A stretch of DNA of 42,558 bases from assembly GCA_029246985.1 (NCBI GenBank), contig JAQWMC010000101.1, positions 1-42,558 on the forward strand, in the 5' to 3' direction. Below the pieces are notes generated by a model, which had not been told where the DNA came from, made no database searches, and was given only the letters and a program-made list of their open reading frames with translations. This document shows, one piece after another, positions 4,346 through 14,105 of the stretch. Source of the DNA: Pirellulales bacterium (GTDB taxonomy: Bacteria; Planctomycetota; Planctomycetia; Pirellulales; UBA1268). The position numbers were made by a program, and so were the translations under genes. Positions within the stretch are counted from its first letter, which is position 1. Each line of letters starts with the position of its first letter.

Positions 4346-4500
4346 TCCCTGAGGGCATGTTCATGCGGCGGCCAAATTGATTTGAAAATGATCTATTGTG
4401 AGGCAGCATGGTAAGGTCTTGACTGAGCAAGCATGTAGGGATTTTGCTGTGCACATGACTGCCGGCCCGTAGAAATAAAATGGTACGCGAGGGAACGATC

Positions 4501-6759
4501 ATGCTGAGGGAATTGTGTAGTGTTTCGGATGGACGTGGCGTGGTTGGCCAGAGTCTCCTGATGGTCTGCGCTCTAATGATCGGGTGTAGTGAACCACCAC
4601 CGCCACCACCAGTTGTTGAGGCACCGGTTCCCGTTGAAGAACCAAAAGTCATTGAACTTGCTGAAATGGCTGACGTCGTGTTAGATCCAGCCGGCAAAAG
4701 CGAACTCGCAGTGCGAGTGACGAGGAATGGTCATGAAGGGAGTATTACGGTCTCTTTTCAAGGCTTTCCAGACGGAGTCAAGCCATCTCCGAAATCACTC
4801 GTCATAAAGGAAGGATCTTCAGCTGGAAAAGTCGTTTTGCAGGCGTCACCAAGTCTTGGTGATAAAATTGTAAAAACGGCCGTTTCGGTAAAAGCGGAAC
4901 TGAAAAAGATGTCTGCTGCACGTTCGCTGAACGTTGTTGTGAACAAGGTTTCGCGTCCTGAGTTCGGAAAAGTTGAGATGGTCGTGCTTCAACCTGGTGC
5001 GAGCAAAACTGTTTCAGTTTCTTTAAAGCGGAATGGCTTTTCTGGGCAAACACCTGTTGCCGTATCTGGAGGGGGCACATCACTCACTGCCAAAATTGAG
5101 TCTCCAGCCAACGGCAAGACTGCCGAGGCCGTAAAGGTAGTTGTATCTGCCAATACAATTGCCGTTGATGGCGTTGTCAATTTAGAGGTTTCGACAAATG
5201 CGTACGGGCGAAAGGTTGCAGGAAAAATTCCAATTGAGATTTCCCGGTATCCGTTTCGGGTCGAGTCCTTCCGTGTCATTGATTTGAAGCCAAGTTCCAA
5301 AGAGGTCATTCGACTGCCAGTCAAACGAGAGAAATATAGTGGCCCCCTGGATTTTGTGTTGAAAAATCTTCCTTCCGGAGTTGATGCCTCAGTCATGTCA
5401 ATTCCAGCAGGTGGCCAGGAGATTTCCCTTGCTCTCTCGGTATCCTCGACTGCCAAACCACAAGTTCGGTCAAGTCTGATTGAGGCAACTGGTGGTGGTT
5501 TACAAACAACGAATTACATCATTTTACGTGTTCTCGCTGATGATACTGAGAAATTACCAGCGGGGATAATCAACGTTTCTGCAATCAAGAAGATTTTTTC
5601 AGATCCGGCAGCGTCCGCTCCTCTGCGAAGAAAAGGTTCCATTGGTGGTCGGCTCACCCTCGCAAGTAAGCAGGCGCTTATTGATTTCTATGGGGCAACT
5701 CCTCGGTCATTGGAGTCGATTCGTGAAGGTATCGACTGGCTAGCAGATTGCCAGCGTGGTGATGGGTCCTGGGCGCTCGATGGGTCTCTTGAGGACGCCG
5801 AGGAAGGCGAAGCGAATGAGGGTCCAAGCCCAAATCCGATTGGCGCTACTGCACTCGCATTACTGCCGTTTCTTAGTGAAGGTATTGCCCACAGTCGTGT
5901 GCCTGAAGGACAAGAAGAACTTGAGCAGTATCAAGGAGTCGTTGAGCGAGGCCTGGTCTATCTTGCGCTCAGTCAGCAACGAAGTAACGACATTAATGAC
6001 GGACGTCTCGATGGCGGGATGTATGCTCACGCACTGGCAACCATTGTGTTTTGTGAAGCGTATGGGTTGTCTGGTGATGAGCGACTTCGGGGGCATGCTC
6101 AATTAGCTTTGAAATATCTACTAAATGCACAGCATCAGGCTGGTGGTGGATGGCGCTATTCACCGAACCAGCCCGGCGATCTCTCTGCAACTGGCTGGGT
6201 TTTTCTTGCAATTCGCAGCGCACAACTCACAGGAATAAATGTGCTTTCTCAGTCACTTGAACGCGCGGGACGTTTTGTGGATTCATGCGGAGTTGGTCCA
6301 GAAGACATTCCGCTGTCCCGGTATTGTTACCAGCCGAGTGGTACTGAAAGTACTGAAAAACAAAGTATGACAGCGGCAGGCCTCCTGACCCAGCAGTATC
6401 TTGGGTGGAAAAAAGACGACCGAAATCTCATAGCAGGCAGTACGTATTTGATGGCAAAGCAGCCGCCGGAGCAAAGCACTAATTTAGGAGACATTTATTT
6501 CTATTATTATGCGACCCAGGTTCTTCATCATCTTGAGGGGAACAACTTCGATCTGTGGAATCATCGCATGCGAGAGCATCTTATTCGCACGCAAGAAAAA
6601 GACGGTGAGTTCAAGGGTAGTTGGCGGCCAGACGGCGTTCCACATGGGAATACAGGTGGCAGAGTGTACGTGACGAGCCTTTCGATGCTGACACTCCAAG
6701 TTCCCTACCGTCACTTGCCGATGTACCGACTTTTTAAAATTGGTCGAAGTTCGGACTGA
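4501..6759 (+). CDS. Lipoprotein with Ig-like repeats and prenyltransferase/squalene-cyclase-type toroid
   Basis: The start is placed at the ATG at 4501, not 4480, because GAGGGA ends 6 bases before it. The protein opens with a lipoprotein signal ending LLMVCALMIGC, and a Pro-rich linker SEPPPPPP follows. Residues of about 50-350 look like three or four beta-rich repeats, each with phrases such as LKPSSKEVIRLPVKR or LQPGASKTVSVSLKR, resembling bacterial Ig-like domains. From about 395 to the end are repeated helical units with QRGDGSWAL, QHQAGGGWRYSP and DGEFKGSW. These are the QW-like signatures of the terpene cyclase/prenyltransferase alpha/alpha toroid. The acidic DXDD motif of true squalene-hopene cyclases was not seen, so a structural or binding role on the cell envelope is more likely than cyclisation. 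This architecture is frequent in Planctomycetota. Confidence 0.75.
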   Translation: MLRELCSVSDGRGVVGQSLLMVCALMIGCSEPPPPPPVVEAPVPVEEPKVIELAEMADVVLDPAGKSELAVRVTRNGHEGSITVSFQGFPDGVKPSPKSLVIKEGSSAGKVVLQASPSLGDKIVKTAVSVKAELKKMSAARSLNVVVNKVSRPEFGKVEMVVLQPGASKTVSVSLKRNGFSGQTPVAVSGGGTSLTAKIESPANGKTAEAVKVVVSANTIAVDGVVNLEVSTNAYGRKVAGKIPIEISRYPFRVESFRVIDLKPSSKEVIRLPVKREKYSGPLDFVLKNLPSGVDASVMSIPAGGQEISLALSVSSTAKPQVRSSLIEATGGGLQTTNYIILRVLADDTEKLPAGIINVSAIKKIFSDPAASAPLRRKGSIGGRLTLASKQALIDFYGATPRSLESIREGIDWLADCQRGDGSWALDGSLEDAEEGEANEGPSPNPIGATALALLPFLSEGIAHSRVPEGQEELEQYQGVVERGLVYLALSQQRSNDINDGRLDGGMYAHALATIVFCEAYGLSGDERLRGHAQLALKYLLNAQHQAGGGWRYSPNQPGDLSATGWVFLAIRSAQLTGINVLSQSLERAGRFVDSCGVGPEDIPLSRYCYQPSGTESTEKQSMTAAGLLTQQYLGWKKDDRNLIAGSTYLMAKQPPEQSTNLGDIYFYYYATQVLHHLEGNNFDLWNHRMREHLIRTQEKDGEFKGSWRPDGVPHGNTGGRVYVTSLSMLTLQVPYRHLPMYRLFKIGRSSD

Positions 6760-6783: not shown

Positions 6784-6813
6784 AAAAAGGGTTAGGGTGT
6801 TTGCTGCCTAACC
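6784..6813 (-). terminator. Intrinsic terminator for the caspase-like gene
   Basis: Read on the minus strand, GGTTAGG pairs perfectly with CCTAACC across a 10-base loop and is followed by C and then TTTTT. The TAG stop codon of the caspase-like gene (6810-6808) lies inside the 5' arm. It also sits between two convergent genes. Confidence 0.7.
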
Positions 6814-7935
6814 GATATCTAGGAATGGATCACACGTGGCCTCTTCCTGTAACCCAAGTGCTTTTCTTAGTGCATCAAGATCGGCGTTACTCAGAGGAAC
6901 GAATACAACTGGGTCTTGGACCATTTCTGGATCAATGAGTCGGTAGCCAATAACATGAGATCCTTGGATGATTGGTCTTCTTCCATACCCAAACATCATG
7001 TTGTCGACCTTTTCAAAAAAGTCACCCAAAGTAATTTTTGTTGGGCGTGGCCGTCGGATGTAAAAAAGTTCAATAACATCTCGCCAGAAGTGTGGCACGA
7101 ATTTCTGTCCAACGTCGGCATGACCAACGCAATCTCGATTCGTGCCAGCAATGAGCGTCGGTAATTGTTTCAAATGAATAGACTGCGCCCGGCAGGAGTC
7201 GGTTATTGTCGTAGCGAGGTTGATCATAAAGTCGGCACTGTAGCAGTCGTCACATATGATTGTCAGATGACTGAGGTCGATACTAGAAGAATTGTTTATG
7301 TGTACCGCAGCAGTTAGAAGTGTTTTTGCAAGTCGATCAACTGGTATATGGTAGCTCTGAATTTCTTTCGGCAGCCCATGCCCCAGAACAATTATGGTTG
7401 TCGGTATGTTTTGTGACTCAACAGCAGCAGCGACTGACTGAAGAAATGCATTGCCCACTTCTTCAAGGGTTTCTGAAGGGCTGGTCTTCTTAAAAATTGT
7501 GGAAGTGCAATCATAGGCTGCAGCAAGCGATGAAATTTCTTTGGGGTCCAGGCCATGATCAGGATCGAGTAACCCGATTAAGTTACAACCGGGCCCAATG
7601 ACTGGAGCATCTGCAACAGCAGTTCTCTTCATGTCAATAAATTGTGCAAGAGCGACAAGCCGCGCGTGTCGTTGTGTTGAGGAGAGCCCACTTAAACTGT
7701 CAGAATATCGTTGCGACAGGTAATACAGAGACGGCTCAAGCTGGCGGTAGTGTTTTGGCGTGACGCCTAGTGTCTTGGAAACAGCAGGAGAGTCGGCTTG
7801 CTGGAATTCAGTGAATTCTTCGGCGGAAAGGTGCGTTGATGTGGGAGTGAAAAGGAGCGGGATGCATCCGGTTATGAGGAGGCAAGAAAGTCTGGCGAGT
7901 GCAGCCTGACGGTGACGTGTTTGCTGAGTTTGCAT
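6808..7935 (-). CDS. Exported protein with caspase-like (clan CD) His/Cys dyad
   Basis: The product is 375 residues with no close family recognised. The N-terminus is a secretion signal: the hydrophobic stretch LSCLLITGCIPLLF contains an ITGC lipobox, and LSA-EEF would be an alternative signal peptidase I site. The core matches the order of a caspase-type fold: a strand CNLIGLLDPDHG (about 117-128), TTIIVLGHGLP with His186-Gly, and LTIICDDCYSADF with Cys231 after two Asp and followed by Tyr-Ser. A His-Gly turn followed about 45 residues later by D-x-C is the catalytic signature of clan CD peptidases (caspases, metacaspases, C13/C14). It is transcribed divergently from imuA, and its likely promoter overlaps the LexA-like palindrome. 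Peptidase activity is inference; the fold could also be a degenerate relative. Confidence 0.6.
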   Translation of the reverse strand: MQTQQTRHRQAALARLSCLLITGCIPLLFTPTSTHLSAEEFTEFQQADSPAVSKTLGVTPKHYRQLEPSLYYLSQRYSDSLSGLSSTQRHARLVALAQFIDMKRTAVADAPVIGPGCNLIGLLDPDHGLDPKEISSLAAAYDCTSTIFKKTSPSETLEEVGNAFLQSVAAAVESQNIPTTIIVLGHGLPKEIQSYHIPVDRLAKTLLTAAVHINNSSSIDLSHLTIICDDCYSADFMINLATTITDSCRAQSIHLKQLPTLIAGTNRDCVGHADVGQKFVPHFWRDVIELFYIRRPRPTKITLGDFFEKVDNMMFGYGRRPIIQGSHVIGYRLIDPEMVQDPVVFVPLSNADLDALRKALGLQEEATCDPFLDIG

Positions 7936-8008
7936 GGGTAATACTCGCAGGTGAGAGTGGAAGAGTCATCGATTATACGACCAGACAAAGGTGTGCTGAA
8001 TTACAGTC

Positions 8009-8037
8009 TTGACGGTGCCGGTAAGATACAATACTGT
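8009..8037 (+). promoter_or_regulatory. Candidate imuA promoter (TTGACG / TACTGT)
   Basis: TTGACG at 8009-8014 matches the sigma-70 -35 box in five of six positions. A 17-base spacer leads to TACTGT at 8032-8037, which keeps the key T, A and final T of a -10 box. The -10 overlaps the palindrome, as expected for a repressor-controlled promoter. It also shows that the track start at 8009 lies in promoter DNA. Confidence 0.45.
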
Positions 8038-8048
8038 ACATCAGTACA
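8035..8048. promoter_or_regulatory. LexA-like operator palindrome TGTAC-N4-GTACA
   Basis: TGTAC ATCA GTACA is a perfect 5+4+5 inverted repeat about 75 bases before imuA. Its geometry (five-base arms, four-base spacer) is like that of LexA boxes of the GAAC-N4-GTTC and TGTTC-N4-GAACA types, and imuA-imuB-dnaE2 cassettes are classically LexA-controlled. The arm sequence differs from those known classes. Assignment to LexA is inference. Confidence 0.5.
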
Positions 8049-8122: not shown

Positions 8123-9049
8123 ATGGTTGATCATGCGCAGTTGCAGCAACTTTCTCGCATGGTTTCAGAAGGTTCCTCATTGCCGGGATGCATTGAAGAG
8201 GGAGCCGGCCCAACGGTCGTGAGTAGTGGACTGCCATCACTCGACCGCCTTCTGAGATATAGAGGGGTGCGGCTGGGCACTCTTATGGAATGGCTTGAGT
8301 CCGAGGATGAGAGTGTGGCATCAGCTTCTGGGGCAACAACGTTCGCTCTAGCCGTGGCTATGCATTTGCAGAATACGAACGTATTAACTGGGTGTCGTCC
8401 TGTGGTGCTTGTGGATCGTGGCAGAAGTTTTTATCCACCATCTGTCATGCCTTGGCTGGAACAGTCAGTACACGTTACTTCAGTGAAAGATTCTTCACCA
8501 ATTCGTAATCGTCATAGCAGGGGGAATGTAATAACTGGTAGAGAAGAACACCTGCTTTACATTGTATATCCTGCGAATGAAGCCGATGAATTCTGGTCAA
8601 TTGATCAGCTCCTGCGTTGCCCAAGCGTTGCAGCAGTGGTTGGATGGCCAAAAAATGTTTCATCTACAGTAATGCGTCGATGGCAAATGGCTGCAAAGTC
8701 AAGTGGTGCTGTGGGGTTGCTCGTGCGACCATCCCATGCCCGTCGAGAGCCAACATGGGCAGAAGCACGAATTCAAGTGGAGCCGTCCCCTGCTCTTCAA
8801 AGCAGATGTCAGCATGCAGCATCGTGCAAGACGTGTGGTCCAGGAATGCATCAACCGGCCTCGGGTCGCTGGATTCATTCTCGTGCCTTCACGCTGATGC
8901 AAGTTGGTGGTCAATGGGACGCAGTGACTGCCGTGCCTGAACCCTCGGTAAAGTGTGTTCTTGATCTTGCTAGAGGAAAAGAACACGTTGGTTTTCATGA
9001 GACAATGGAGCGGCCGGAATGTCAGGAAAAAATACGTTGCGCATCATGA
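8123..9049 (+). CDS. imuA: ImuA, RecA-like mutasome accessory protein
   Basis: ImuA works with ImuB and DnaE2 in translesion synthesis and induced mutagenesis. The protein shows the family layout: VVSSGLPSLDRLLRYRGVRLGTLMEWL (RecA-type N-terminal strand and loop), a central LLYIVYPANEADEFWSIDQLLRCPSVAAVVGW and the late motif GLLVRPSHARREPTWAEARIQVEP. The track start at 8009 is rejected because it lies in the promoter. The in-frame ATG at 8123 is chosen, with GGAA 9 bases upstream; a GTG at 8075 is a weaker option. The resulting length, about 308 residues, is plausible although family members are often shorter. A run of seven C (8088-8094) lies in the leader. The gene overlaps imuB by 31 bases, which indicates translational coupling. 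Confidence 0.8.
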   Translation: MVDHAQLQQLSRMVSEGSSLPGCIEEGAGPTVVSSGLPSLDRLLRYRGVRLGTLMEWLESEDESVASASGATTFALAVAMHLQNTNVLTGCRPVVLVDRGRSFYPPSVMPWLEQSVHVTSVKDSSPIRNRHSRGNVITGREEHLLYIVYPANEADEFWSIDQLLRCPSVAAVVGWPKNVSSTVMRRWQMAAKSSGAVGLLVRPSHARREPTWAEARIQVEPSPALQSRCQHAASCKTCGPGMHQPASGRWIHSRAFTLMQVGGQWDAVTAVPEPSVKCVLDLARGKEHVGFHETMERPECQEKIRCAS

Positions 9050-10824
9050 CAATATCGCTACCTCGTTGGCCTGTGCAGCGGCAGTTGCTTCAGCAGCCAG
9101 GCTTTCGTGAGTCCCCCATTTTTGTTTGTCGACAGAATGCACGTGGTGTTCTGTCAGTTGTATCCTGGGCTTGGGTTATGTCGCCTACGAAACGCAAGAG
9201 ATCTCAGCCAGTTATTCAGCCAGGCTTTTCATTATCAGAAGCATTGGCGGTACTCGCTTCGGTGTATGGCCAGCGGGCTTCTCGTGTGGCGCGTGTTATT
9301 CCGGAAGATAGTATTGGAGATGTTCGTGTACTTGAGGCGCTGGGTCGCTGGTGTCACAGATTTTCTCCACTTGTTGCAATTGGTCCGGAGGTTATTCGTG
9401 GTGCGGACCACGGGAAGGCAAGAAGACAAAGCGTTTGTTCTGCCAGGAGCCTGCAAGTTGATATTTCGGACACAGCTCGCTTTTTTGGTGGTGAGTCGTC
9501 ACTTCTTCGTACAGTGGTTTGGACGTTAGCCGCTCGTGGAATCCATGCTCGTGCAGCCATTGCTGATACTTTAGCAGCCTCTTGGGCAGCGGCTCTTTGT
9601 GCTGACCGAATTGCTGCAACGAGCCGGCATTCATTGGATGAGTTACAGAAATTGCCAAGGAGCAATCCACGTCGTTCTGCTCTTTTGAAAAATAGAGTAG
9701 TTCGTGGCTCCCGTCATGGGCATTGGTTGGATCGTCAGCAACGATGGGTTCTTGTACCTCCAGGTCGGCAGCGGCAATCTCTTCAGTCACTACCGCTTCA
9801 GTCACTGCAGTTGCCGGTCGATATCGTTGATTCGTTGACTGAAGTGGGTGTCAATTCAATTGGGCAGTTGTTGCGTTTGCCAAAAGTAAGTCTTCAGGAG
9901 CGTTTCGGATCAATTGTTCCCTTGCAGGTGTCTCGTTTTCTTGGTGATGTGTCAGACCCGCTCACGCCATTGCATGGAAGTGAGCTTTTGGTAGCAAACC
10001 ATTCATTTGAAATGCCAGTTCTTGGTCGTGATATTGATTCCACATACTTCCGTGCATTGATTGAAAGACTAGTTCGTCAATGTCTTCAGCCACTAGTGAA
10101 TACAAATCGTGGAGTAAGCAGTCTGCAAGTAAGGCTTGATACGAATGAAGGTCATCGCCCAACAGTCATTGAGGTTGGTCTTTATAAACCAACGGTACAA
10201 GTGAGGCACCTTGTTGATCTTATAATGTTGCGATTTGAGAGGGTGCGGCTTCCCAGAGAAATTGTTGATGTGTCAATAGAAGTCATGTCAGCAGGTACGT
10301 TGCCCTATCGGCAGCAGAATCTTTTTCGCGGTCCAACGGAATCGGGTGCGTCACGGTTTGAGACACTTCTTAATCGCCTGGTCAGTCGCTTGGGGAGTGG
10401 TGCAGTTGTTGAGCCTCGGTTGCTTGCTGATATACAGCCAGAAGCATCGTGGGTCGCAGCACCAGTAGTTGGTGTGATAGGTCTTTCAAAGTCGCATCGT
10501 TCAGGCCATCTGCTTGGATCAAGCAGGCCTCATTTCTCGAAGCCTGTTGTAGGACCTAGCCGTCCAACTTTTTTGCTTTCCAGCCCGCGTTTGATCGACG
10601 TGCCTTCGTTAAGCGCAGACGGACTCCCAGTGCATTTCCGTTGGAAAGGGCAGTTCCATGTAGTGATGCGGTCTCGTGGGCCAGAGCGAATTGAAACGGC
10701 TTGGTGGCGAGGTCCAACCGTTCGTCGAGACTATTACATCTTCGAAACTGATCGCGGAGGTCGTTTCTGGATGTTCCGTGGCCTTCGGAAACGATCCTGG
10801 TTTCTTCATGGAACATATGGATGA
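9019..10824 (+). CDS. imuB: ImuB, catalytically inactive Y-family polymerase homologue
   Basis: ImuB is the hub that links ImuA, DnaE2 and the beta clamp. It has the Y-family polymerase fold without the catalytic acidic residues. The N-terminus reads MTISLPRWPVQRQ in place of the Asp-containing first motif of active polymerases. The palm segment is LQVDISDTARFFGGESSLL, and no SIDE-type motif is seen. The C-terminus ends RRDYYIFETDRGGRFWMFRGLRKRSWFLHG, the typical ImuB tail. GGAG lies 9 bases before the ATG at 9019, which supports that start. The alternative ATG at 9046 overlaps the imuA stop as ATGA and begins closer to the usual N-terminus. The clamp-binding motif could not be assigned with confidence. 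Confidence 0.85.
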   Translation: MSGKNTLRIMTISLPRWPVQRQLLQQPGFRESPIFVCRQNARGVLSVVSWAWVMSPTKRKRSQPVIQPGFSLSEALAVLASVYGQRASRVARVIPEDSIGDVRVLEALGRWCHRFSPLVAIGPEVIRGADHGKARRQSVCSARSLQVDISDTARFFGGESSLLRTVVWTLAARGIHARAAIADTLAASWAAALCADRIAATSRHSLDELQKLPRSNPRRSALLKNRVVRGSRHGHWLDRQQRWVLVPPGRQRQSLQSLPLQSLQLPVDIVDSLTEVGVNSIGQLLRLPKVSLQERFGSIVPLQVSRFLGDVSDPLTPLHGSELLVANHSFEMPVLGRDIDSTYFRALIERLVRQCLQPLVNTNRGVSSLQVRLDTNEGHRPTVIEVGLYKPTVQVRHLVDLIMLRFERVRLPREIVDVSIEVMSAGTLPYRQQNLFRGPTESGASRFETLLNRLVSRLGSGAVVEPRLLADIQPEASWVAAPVVGVIGLSKSHRSGHLLGSSRPHFSKPVVGPSRPTFLLSSPRLIDVPSLSADGLPVHFRWKGQFHVVMRSRGPERIETAWWRGPTVRRDYYIFETDRGGRFWMFRGLRKRSWFLHGTYG

Positions 10825-10901: not shown

Positions 10902-13900
10902 ATGCAGGGTTGTAGCCGGTATGCAGAACTTCACTGCACGACAAATTTTTCCTTTTTGCAGGCAGGTTCACATCCAGAGGAATTAGTTTCACAAGCTGCT
11001 TCTCTAGGGTATGCGGCACTTGCGATAACAGACCGAGTGAGTCTATCTGGTGTCGTACGAGCGCACGCTGCGGCCAAAGAAGCTGGTGTTCACCTGATAA
11101 TAGGTGCTGTTGTAGAGCCAATAGATGCTGCACCACTTGTTCTATGGGTAACAAACAAGAAGGGGTATGAGAATCTGTGTCGTTTGTTGACAACGGGGCT
11201 TTTGAAGCAGGATTGTTTGAAGAAAGATGGAGAAATTGATGGAAGTGAATTACGAGATCACGATCCCCGATGTTGTCTGACTGCTGATGAGGTGGCTGCT
11301 CATGCAGATGGTTTGCTAGCAGGCATTCCGTTATCTCAACTACATGGGTCTGTCGAATCAGCAACTGTTTCTATTCGTGCATGGCAGGACAGGCTTGGTA
11401 AGCAACTCTATGGGTTAGCAGAAGTTGCAATGGAAGGAGATGATCAAGAACGTCTGGAAAATTATGCAAGGCTTTCTTATGAAACTCATATACCTTTGGT
11501 AGCAGCCGGTGACGTTCGCTATCACAGTCGTGATCGCCAGCCACTGCATGATGCTCTTGCTGCAGTGCGATACGGCAGGACGGTCGAGTCAATTCAGGAA
11601 AAGTTGCTGTCGAACGGCGAGCGGCATCTGCAGGACATCAAGCATGTTGTTGAACGTTTTTCCATCTTGCCAGGTGCGGTAGACCGCACGCTTGAGATTG
11701 CCAGCCGCTGTACTTTTTCACTGGATGATATTTCGTATGAATATCCTCATGCAGTTGTGCCATCTGGTTGGACGCCAATAGATTACTTGAGCAACCTGGC
11801 CTGGAAGGGAGCTCGAAAGCGTTATGACAATAAAGTTCCTGGAAAAGTAGCTGGTCTTTTGAAGTATGAACTATCGCTTGTTCATGAGCTTGGCTATGAG
11901 GCGTATTTTCTTACCGTATTTGATTTAGTTCGGTTCGCCCGTCAGCGAGGTATTCTTTGTCAGGGGCGAGGGTCTGCAGCGAATTCAGCTATTTGTTATT
12001 GCCTGGGTATTACATCAGTTGATCCTGCTCGGACAAATGTGCTTTTTGAACGGTTTGTGAGCCGTGAGCGACAAGAGGCACCTGACATTGACGTTGATTT
12101 TGAGCATCACCGACGGGAAGAGGTACTGCAATATATTTACACAACATATGGTCGTATGCGTTCGGCAATGACAGCTGAAGTAATCTGTTACCGTTTGCGA
12201 TCGGCCGTTCGGGATCTGGCAAAAGTACTTGGCTTCTCACTTGATCGAATCAATCAATTAGCACGAATTCTTGATGTCGGTGATCGTGCAGAGCAGCTGC
12301 CTGAAAGATTGGCTGAGTCGGGCATTGATCCATGTAGTGAATCAGGCCAACGACTTATTGCGCTTGTGAATCAATTGATCAGTTTTCCTCGCCATCTTGG
12401 GCAGCATGTGGGGGGCATGGTAATAACTCGAGGAGATCTCTGTGAATTAGTACCGATCCAGCCGGCCAGTATGGACGGCCGTACAGTCATTCAATGGGAT
12501 AAAAACGATCTTGATGAAATCGGAATATTGAAAGTTGACTGTCTCTCGCTAGGAATGCTCTCAGCCATTCGTCGTGCATTTGATCTTGTGAAACAAGGTG
12601 GCGGGCCGTGTCTCACATTAGGGACAGTGCCAGCTGAAGATCCGCGTGTTTACGAAATGATTTCTAAGGCAGATACGGTAGGAGTATTTCAAATTGAGAG
12701 CCGTGCGCAGCGAAGCATGTTGCCACGTTTAAAGCCAGCCTGTTTTTATGACTTAGTTATAGAAGTAGCCATTGTTCGTCCGGGGCCAATACAGGGGAAT
12801 ATGGTGCACCCATATCTTCGGCGACGTCAAGGAAAAGAATCTGTTTGTTATCCGAATCAGGCAATTCGAGAGGTGCTTGAAAAAACACTTGGTGTACCTT
12901 TGTTTCAAGAGCAGGCAATGCGGCTTGCGGTAGTGGCTGCAGGATTTACTCCCGGTGAGGCTGATCAACTACGACGAGCAATGGGTGCTTGGCGCCGAAC
13001 AGGGGTGATTCAGGAATTTCATCAACGGCTAGTAGATGGAATGGTGTCACGGGGGCTTTCGTTGACTTTTGCGGAACAAGTCTTTCAGCAGTTGAAAGGC
13101 TTTGGTGAATACGGGTTTCCAGAGTCACACGCCGCTAGCTTTGCATTGTTGGTGTATGTCTCTGCTTGGCTCAAGTTCCATTATCCGGCGGCATTTACAG
13201 CTGCACTGCTCGGTAGTCAGCCAATGGGTTTTTATGCCCCAGCCCAGCTTGTTCGCGATGCCCAAGAGCATGGGGTGACTGTTTTGCCTGTGTGTATCCA
13301 GAGTAGCGGATGGCATGCAGGGCTTGAGCCTTCTGGTGAATCCTTGCCTGCTCTTCGACTTGGACTCGAGCAGGTTCATGGGCTTGGCCAAACAAGTGGT
13401 CATCAAATTGAAGAGGTTAGGAATTCAGGTCGATTCAAGAGTATTTATGATCTCACGAAGCGGTGTCAGCTAACACAGCCTCAAGTCCTTTCATTAGCTC
13501 GTGCCGGAGCTTTAAAGAGCTTGTCCGGAAGTCGAAGGCAGGCAGTATGGAATTCAATGGAGCGCACGCCAGAACCAGGGAGTATGCCATTGTTTGAAGG
13601 GTTGGCTGGTAATGGTTTTAATGAAACAGAAAGTAGTTTTGATGAGACGGCGTATTTGCCGACGACATCACCCCTTGAAGAAGTGCTATCGGACTATCGT
13701 GCATCAGGGCTGTCTCTCAAGGCTCATCCGCTGCAGTTTATTCGTTCACGTCTTATACAAAACGGAGTCGTGACTGCTGCAGGTGCCTGTTCTCGTCCGG
13801 AAGGTAGCAGGGTCGTAGTTGTGGGTATTGTGTTGTCACGTCAGTGTCCAGCAACAGCGAAAGGCACAATTTTTTTGACACTCGAAGATGAAACAGACAT

Positions 13901-14105
13901 TGTTAATGTAGTTGTTCCAAAAGCTGTCTGGCAGCACTGTGATCCAAAAAATAGACGGGTGCCTGTATTAATGGTCAAAGGTCGAATTCAGCGACGTGGG
14001 AAAGTTGTTCATCTTTTGGCAAGGCGTCTGGAAGCATGGAGTGGAGATGATACGAATGAACTCTCGCTTGTTGATTTACCAAGAATGTCACGGGACTTTT
14101 GTTAA
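10902..14105 (+). CDS. dnaE2: DnaE2, error-prone DNA polymerase III alpha subunit
   Basis: This is a C-family polymerase used for lesion bypass. The 1067-residue length is right for DnaE2 and shorter than the replicative DnaE. The N-terminal PHP domain begins ELHCTTNFSFLQAGSHPEELV, with Thr where metal-binding PHP domains keep His, as is common in DnaE2. The polymerase catalytic motif APDIDVDFEHHRREE is at about residues 393-407, the palm and fingers follow, FGEYGFPESHAASFALL carries the helix-hairpin-helix region, and an OB fold (VVVVGIVLSRQCPATAKGTIFLTLEDE) lies near the end. GAGG is 7 bases before the ATG. It is the third gene of the imuA-imuB-dnaE2 set, 77 bases after imuB, and likely shares the upstream operator. 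Confidence 0.93.
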   Translation: MQGCSRYAELHCTTNFSFLQAGSHPEELVSQAASLGYAALAITDRVSLSGVVRAHAAAKEAGVHLIIGAVVEPIDAAPLVLWVTNKKGYENLCRLLTTGLLKQDCLKKDGEIDGSELRDHDPRCCLTADEVAAHADGLLAGIPLSQLHGSVESATVSIRAWQDRLGKQLYGLAEVAMEGDDQERLENYARLSYETHIPLVAAGDVRYHSRDRQPLHDALAAVRYGRTVESIQEKLLSNGERHLQDIKHVVERFSILPGAVDRTLEIASRCTFSLDDISYEYPHAVVPSGWTPIDYLSNLAWKGARKRYDNKVPGKVAGLLKYELSLVHELGYEAYFLTVFDLVRFARQRGILCQGRGSAANSAICYCLGITSVDPARTNVLFERFVSRERQEAPDIDVDFEHHRREEVLQYIYTTYGRMRSAMTAEVICYRLRSAVRDLAKVLGFSLDRINQLARILDVGDRAEQLPERLAESGIDPCSESGQRLIALVNQLISFPRHLGQHVGGMVITRGDLCELVPIQPASMDGRTVIQWDKNDLDEIGILKVDCLSLGMLSAIRRAFDLVKQGGGPCLTLGTVPAEDPRVYEMISKADTVGVFQIESRAQRSMLPRLKPACFYDLVIEVAIVRPGPIQGNMVHPYLRRRQGKESVCYPNQAIREVLEKTLGVPLFQEQAMRLAVVAAGFTPGEADQLRRAMGAWRRTGVIQEFHQRLVDGMVSRGLSLTFAEQVFQQLKGFGEYGFPESHAASFALLVYVSAWLKFHYPAAFTAALLGSQPMGFYAPAQLVRDAQEHGVTVLPVCIQSSGWHAGLEPSGESLPALRLGLEQVHGLGQTSGHQIEEVRNSGRFKSIYDLTKRCQLTQPQVLSLARAGALKSLSGSRRQAVWNSMERTPEPGSMPLFEGLAGNGFNETESSFDETAYLPTTSPLEEVLSDYRASGLSLKAHPLQFIRSRLIQNGVVTAAGACSRPEGSRVVVVGIVLSRQCPATAKGTIFLTLEDETDIVNVVVPKAVWQHCDPKNRRVPVLMVKGRIQRRGKVVHLLARRLEAWSGDDTNELSLVDLPRMSRDFC

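Follow-up and report, generated by a model that had tools for sequence, protein, structure and literature searches.

The caspase-like peptidases of family C14 (PF00656), comprising the metacaspases and orthocaspases (C14B) and the caspases (C14A), are characterized by a hydrophobic strand and then His-Gly, followed by a second strand and then D-x-C-[YFH]-S, so that His precedes Cys. In metacaspases an Asp lies two residues before the catalytic Cys and may favour a basic residue at P1. Some prokaryotic metacaspases bear an N-terminal transmembrane helix or signal, as 46 of 398 single-domain sequences consist of the domain behind a single N-terminal hydrophobic helix (PMC3501461). Peptidase C25 (gingipain, PF01364) and CHAT (PF12770) likewise belong to clan CD and are common in planctomycetes. 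The imuA-imuB-dnaE2 mutasome cassette, where present, is reported to be persistently under LexA control (PMC3323433). No paper in the literature searched names both 'metacaspase' and 'imuB'.

The window analysed here, a stretch of 42,558 nucleotides from a Pirellulales bacterium, carries both an imuA-imuB-dnaE2 cassette and, divergent from it, a gene for a 375-residue protein (Table 1). We conclude that this protein is probably an exported C14-like cysteine endopeptidase, transcribed from its own promoter, likely outside the SOS response, and held beside the mutasome by old synteny.

Table 1. Features of the peptidase-mutasome locus, in coordinates of the window.
Feature	Position	Strand	Basis
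Exported caspase-like (C14-like) peptidase, putative	6808..7935	(-)	ORF, 375 aa, ATG start; family-wide conservation; profile match to Peptidase_C14
Asp229-Asp230-Cys231, putative catalytic Cys (Cys codon 7243-7245)	7243..7251	(-)	DDC in 53/53 homologues; aligned to D-x-C of C14
Codon of putative catalytic His186 (LGHG)	7378..7380	(-)	53/53 homologues; aligned to HG of C14
Predicted export signal at the N-terminus (residues 1 to about 37), with hydrophobic core LSCLLITGCIPLL and likely cleavage between LSA and EE	7825..7935	(-)	Core in 50/51 homologues; pLDDT <50 for residues 1-35
Likely peptidase -10, TATAAT	7972..7977	(-)	Conserved in aligned g1 intergenic regions; TACAAT/TAGAAT in g8
Likely imuA promoter: TTGACG 8009-8014, N15, AATACT 8030-8035	8009..8035	(+)	TTGAC and ATACTGTAC conserved across genera
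LexA-type operator, putative, TGTACATCAGTACA	8035..8048	.	Sole other exact assembly copy precedes lexA; conserved upstream of imuA
imuA	8123..9049	(+)	ORF; start ATG 8123
imuB	9019..10824	(+)	ORF; cassette position; DUF6504 and RNA_pol_A_CTD matches sub-threshold only
dnaE2 (C-family polymerase)	10902..14105	(+)	Pfam PF07733 1.5e-82, PF17657 4.3e-58

Orthologues with 40-95% identity occur in 12/12 genera of the GTDB family to which the organism belongs within the Pirellulales, and both residues of the putative dyad are present in all 53 homologues covering the region, which together indicate that the reading frame is a real gene. Homologues were found in 55 of the 72 genomes of this family, many of which are fragmented assemblies in which some absences may be gaps, and in 30/34 of the high-quality genomes. 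The peptidase was not found in the 293 other planctomycete genomes sampled, where one weak match of 50 positions was taken as spurious. Identical peptidase sequences (L070 in G368 and L047 in G027) occur in genomes assigned to different genera, reflecting either a misbinned contig or a recent transfer.

His186 lies within VLGHGLP and Cys231 within DDCYSAD, 45 residues apart, and in a 27-member alignment His186 and Asp229-Asp230-Cys231 are among 32 invariant columns. The motifs [VIL]GHG and DDC[YF]S are kept throughout the 53 homologues, and their spacing varies from 40 to 73 residues because the intervening loop differs among them. His-Gly thus precedes Cys, and each is preceded by a hydrophobic strand, the arrangement that marks C14 and clan CD. 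The preliminary description had proposed an intact His-Cys dyad in a caspase-like clan CD peptidase; the dyad is confirmed, free variation of the two residues among homologues was not seen, and the family assignment gains support from the invariant dyad together with an in-register similarity to the C14 profile.

This similarity lies beneath the reach of standard models. Scans of Pfam, NCBIfam and PADLOC left the peptidase unrecognised, the PDB yielded no usable match by sequence or profile search, all 27 members tested lacked a C14 match (PF00656) at E <= 1, and a PF00656 search of the organism's own genome found none at 1e-5. In hhalign, comparison with a profile built from 31 C14 domains of the GTDB family and its order, Pirellulales, returned P 5e-4, and over the peptidase runs P ranged from 5e-4 to 2e-3 with probabilities of 14-32%, which are weak in absolute terms. 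The register places the peptidase HG on the C14 HG and DDC on D-x-C, and 0/400 column- or block-shuffled decoys scored as high against the C14 profile. With 51 members the C14 score was 30.3; the highest score reached by any of 110 unrelated alignments, drawn from the same set of genomes, was 21.2. Those 110 are a rough null, as some include shadow frames. C14 gave the best profile score among the families tried; the scores for C25 (20.4) and CHAT (15.9) fall within the range of unrelated families. With a profile of just six C14 domains no match appeared, whereas the 31-domain profile gave one; for C13, planctomycetes offer too few seeds to make a profile.

The peptidase differs from C14 in falling below the detection threshold of the C14 model, in a unique N-terminal helical region, in a conserved C-terminal QDPVVFVPL/LDIG segment, and in using DDC where C14 usually has DSC or DAC. 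A nearly invariant [LF]D[IVA]G ending lies at the C-terminus (6811-6825 in the window), also in the homologues. It shares an N-terminal hydrophobic helix with the prokaryotic metacaspases described above (PMC3501461), but those are detected by C14 models, and the new peptidase, unlike them, is present in almost all of its lineage, mostly as a single copy. Judged from these alignments, it appears to be C14-like, with Peptidase_C14 its nearest family, while not a proven member of C14.

The preliminary description had left open a secretion or a lipoprotein signal. The signal-peptidase-I-like site follows the N-terminal hydrophobic core, and although start codons are uncertain in several homologues, such a core lies ahead of the mature region in 50 of the 51 surveyed, usually with an A-x-A-like site next to it. 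A lipobox-like string occurs in just 10/51, and one homologue (L003) has Tyr in place of Cys. The export signal therefore stands, and lipoprotein export, for which a conserved lipobox is missing, was rejected.

Neither imuA nor imuB has a Pfam match above the cut-off, and both names derive from cassette position and from gene order conserved over loci. The ATG is the more likely imuA start, since the alternative TTG at 8009 would place the operator within imuA. Divergence of the peptidase from the cassette, as first described, is confirmed at this locus, and neighbouring of imuA extends to homologues: the two genes are directly divergent in 25 genomes of 8 genera, and 7 further genomes keep the orientation across a gap of 0.9-3.2 kb. 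Fourteen peptidase loci have no imuA in the 2-3 kb examined; one is the second copy in G381, whose two copies (L080 and L081) comprise one that adjoins imuA with an operator and one elsewhere without an operator. A quick tree is consistent with old peptidase-imuA linkage and several losses, and genera g2, g6 and g10, which are unlinked, fall outside; parsimony on it gives five linkage changes, several inner branches being poorly supported. In many imuA-linked loci the other flank of the peptidase holds a Gfo/Idh oxidoreductase gene with no evident repair role, which indicates that the peptidase and imuA belong to a syntenic block instead of forming a pair of their own. Between oxidoreductase and peptidase here lies a 759-residue protein (4480-6759) with weak squalene-hopene-cyclase-like matches, which is present in most g1 loci and was not detected in L004. 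Inherited synteny is the most likely reason why the peptidase lies next to imuA.

The exact sequence TGTAC-N4-GTACA occurs at two sites in the 2.45 Mb assembly, one before imuA and one before lexA (L104, 1030-1043). About 2.3 copies are expected by chance, so that the number shows no enrichment and weight falls on the positions of the sites and their conservation. On these grounds TGTAC-N4-GTACA is likely the LexA operator of this Pirellulales family, and the two exact sites suggest a small core SOS regulon. The operator fronting imuA fits the LexA control known for the cassette (PMC3323433), to which the peptidase is an extra divergent neighbour seen in one Pirellulales family only. The operator, with at most one mismatch, lies between peptidase and imuA in 22/25 adjacent loci; the remaining three, all of genus g8, have TATAC-N4-GTATA.

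Whether the protein is of caspase type at all depends on weighing these profile results against structure prediction. It is unlikely, in our estimate, that it is instead an exported alpha/beta protein with a different fold or from a different enzyme class, using HG and DDC for other chemistry, a reading with which the lack of family-library matches and the marginal E-values throughout would agree. AlphaFold2, working from an alignment of six sequences, gave pLDDT 73-76 over two models. In the first (pLDDT 73.4, pTM 0.75), strands at residues 179-184 and 224-228 lead up to His186 and Cys231, ordered as in caspases, and just three PDB matches in Foldseek reached E <= 0.001, namely caspase-11, Raptor and caspase-4, the top caspase match having E 4.7e-4 and TM 0.33/0.47, below 0.5 and from that six-sequence alignment. 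Dropping the signal region for the second model did not improve the fold match: caspase-8 fell at rank 21 and Foldseek preferred other alpha/beta folds. Caspases thus headed the matches in one of the two models, weak support for a caspase fold, and a BFVD search gave only a marginal match, to a viral caspase-domain protein. Because the models are shallow, the fold assignment rests mainly on profile comparison, and there the strand-HG and strand-DxC elements, which follow the caspase order and align in register with C14, speak against another fold, as do the caspases heading the first model's PDB matches. A caspase fold without catalysis, serving as a binding or scaffold protein, is conceivable in that members without the dyad are common in some groups, and among Planctomycetes metacaspases only 64% keep it (PMC3501461). 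Retention of both His and Cys in every homologue covering the region, unlike pseudo-enzymes in which they vary freely, makes this a highly improbable account.

The same divergent arrangement admits a regulatory alternative, in which both genes would answer to LexA at the operator between them, and damage would increase an envelope protease for remodelling or killing. The presence of a LexA-type operator inside the divergent pair in 25 genomes of 8 genera, and the age of the arrangement within the family, would suit such an SOS effector. However, the operator abuts the imuA promoter at its -10 but is separated from the peptidase -10 by about 60 bp, and no LexA operator overlies the peptidase's own promoter, as a place in the SOS (LexA) regulon would entail. 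Where the genes have separated, the operator remains with imuA: it lies near imuA in 7/7 separated loci and upstream of 0/14 unlinked peptidase loci within the 2-3 kb examined, and in G370, G371 and G355, whose imuA is located elsewhere, it was found at imuA and not at the peptidase (in G370 over the 904 bp of readable upstream sequence). Two genomes of genus g4, G012 (92% complete) and G022, have the peptidase and no imuB match at 1e-10, which points to a possible loss of the mutasome, or to incomplete assembly; and the Gfo/Idh gene is kept on the other flank. We consider an SOS effector quite improbable on this evidence, and still more doubtful the fuller proposal that a divergent operator shared across eight genera ties the SOS mutasome to an exported protease of caspase-like type, so that damage would trigger envelope proteolysis during cytoplasmic mutagenesis. 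The link put forward in the preliminary description, by which damage might evoke a death or envelope response, is accordingly unsupported, given the operator's attachment to imuA, the operator-free unlinked loci and the g4 genomes, and a damage-to-envelope role for the peptidase is unlikely. Even at some 60 bp from the peptidase -10, a LexA dimer bound upstream could have an effect on the peptidase in vivo.

For the preferred reading, an exported C14-like endopeptidase, we infer the following course. The protein would leave the cytoplasm by the Sec pathway, and cleavage by signal peptidase I would release it into the periplasm. There His186 would activate Cys231 for cleavage of peptide bonds in secreted or envelope proteins. 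A preference for a basic residue at P1 may come from Asp229, whose position two residues ahead of the Cys matches that in metacaspases. Transcription would proceed from the peptidase's own promoter, probably constitutively and most likely outside the SOS response; the LexA-type operator would control imuA-imuB-dnaE2.

The present locus illustrates how a damage operator that lies between two divergent genes may hint at a functional link which unlinked loci then fail to support. The likely operator TGTAC-N4-GTACA makes the SOS regulon of this lineage testable. The peptidase itself would represent a new conserved exported caspase-like family that the libraries searched (Pfam, NCBIfam and PADLOC) leave unrecognised; it is near-universal in a single planctomycete lineage, in which few C14 peptidases are otherwise found.
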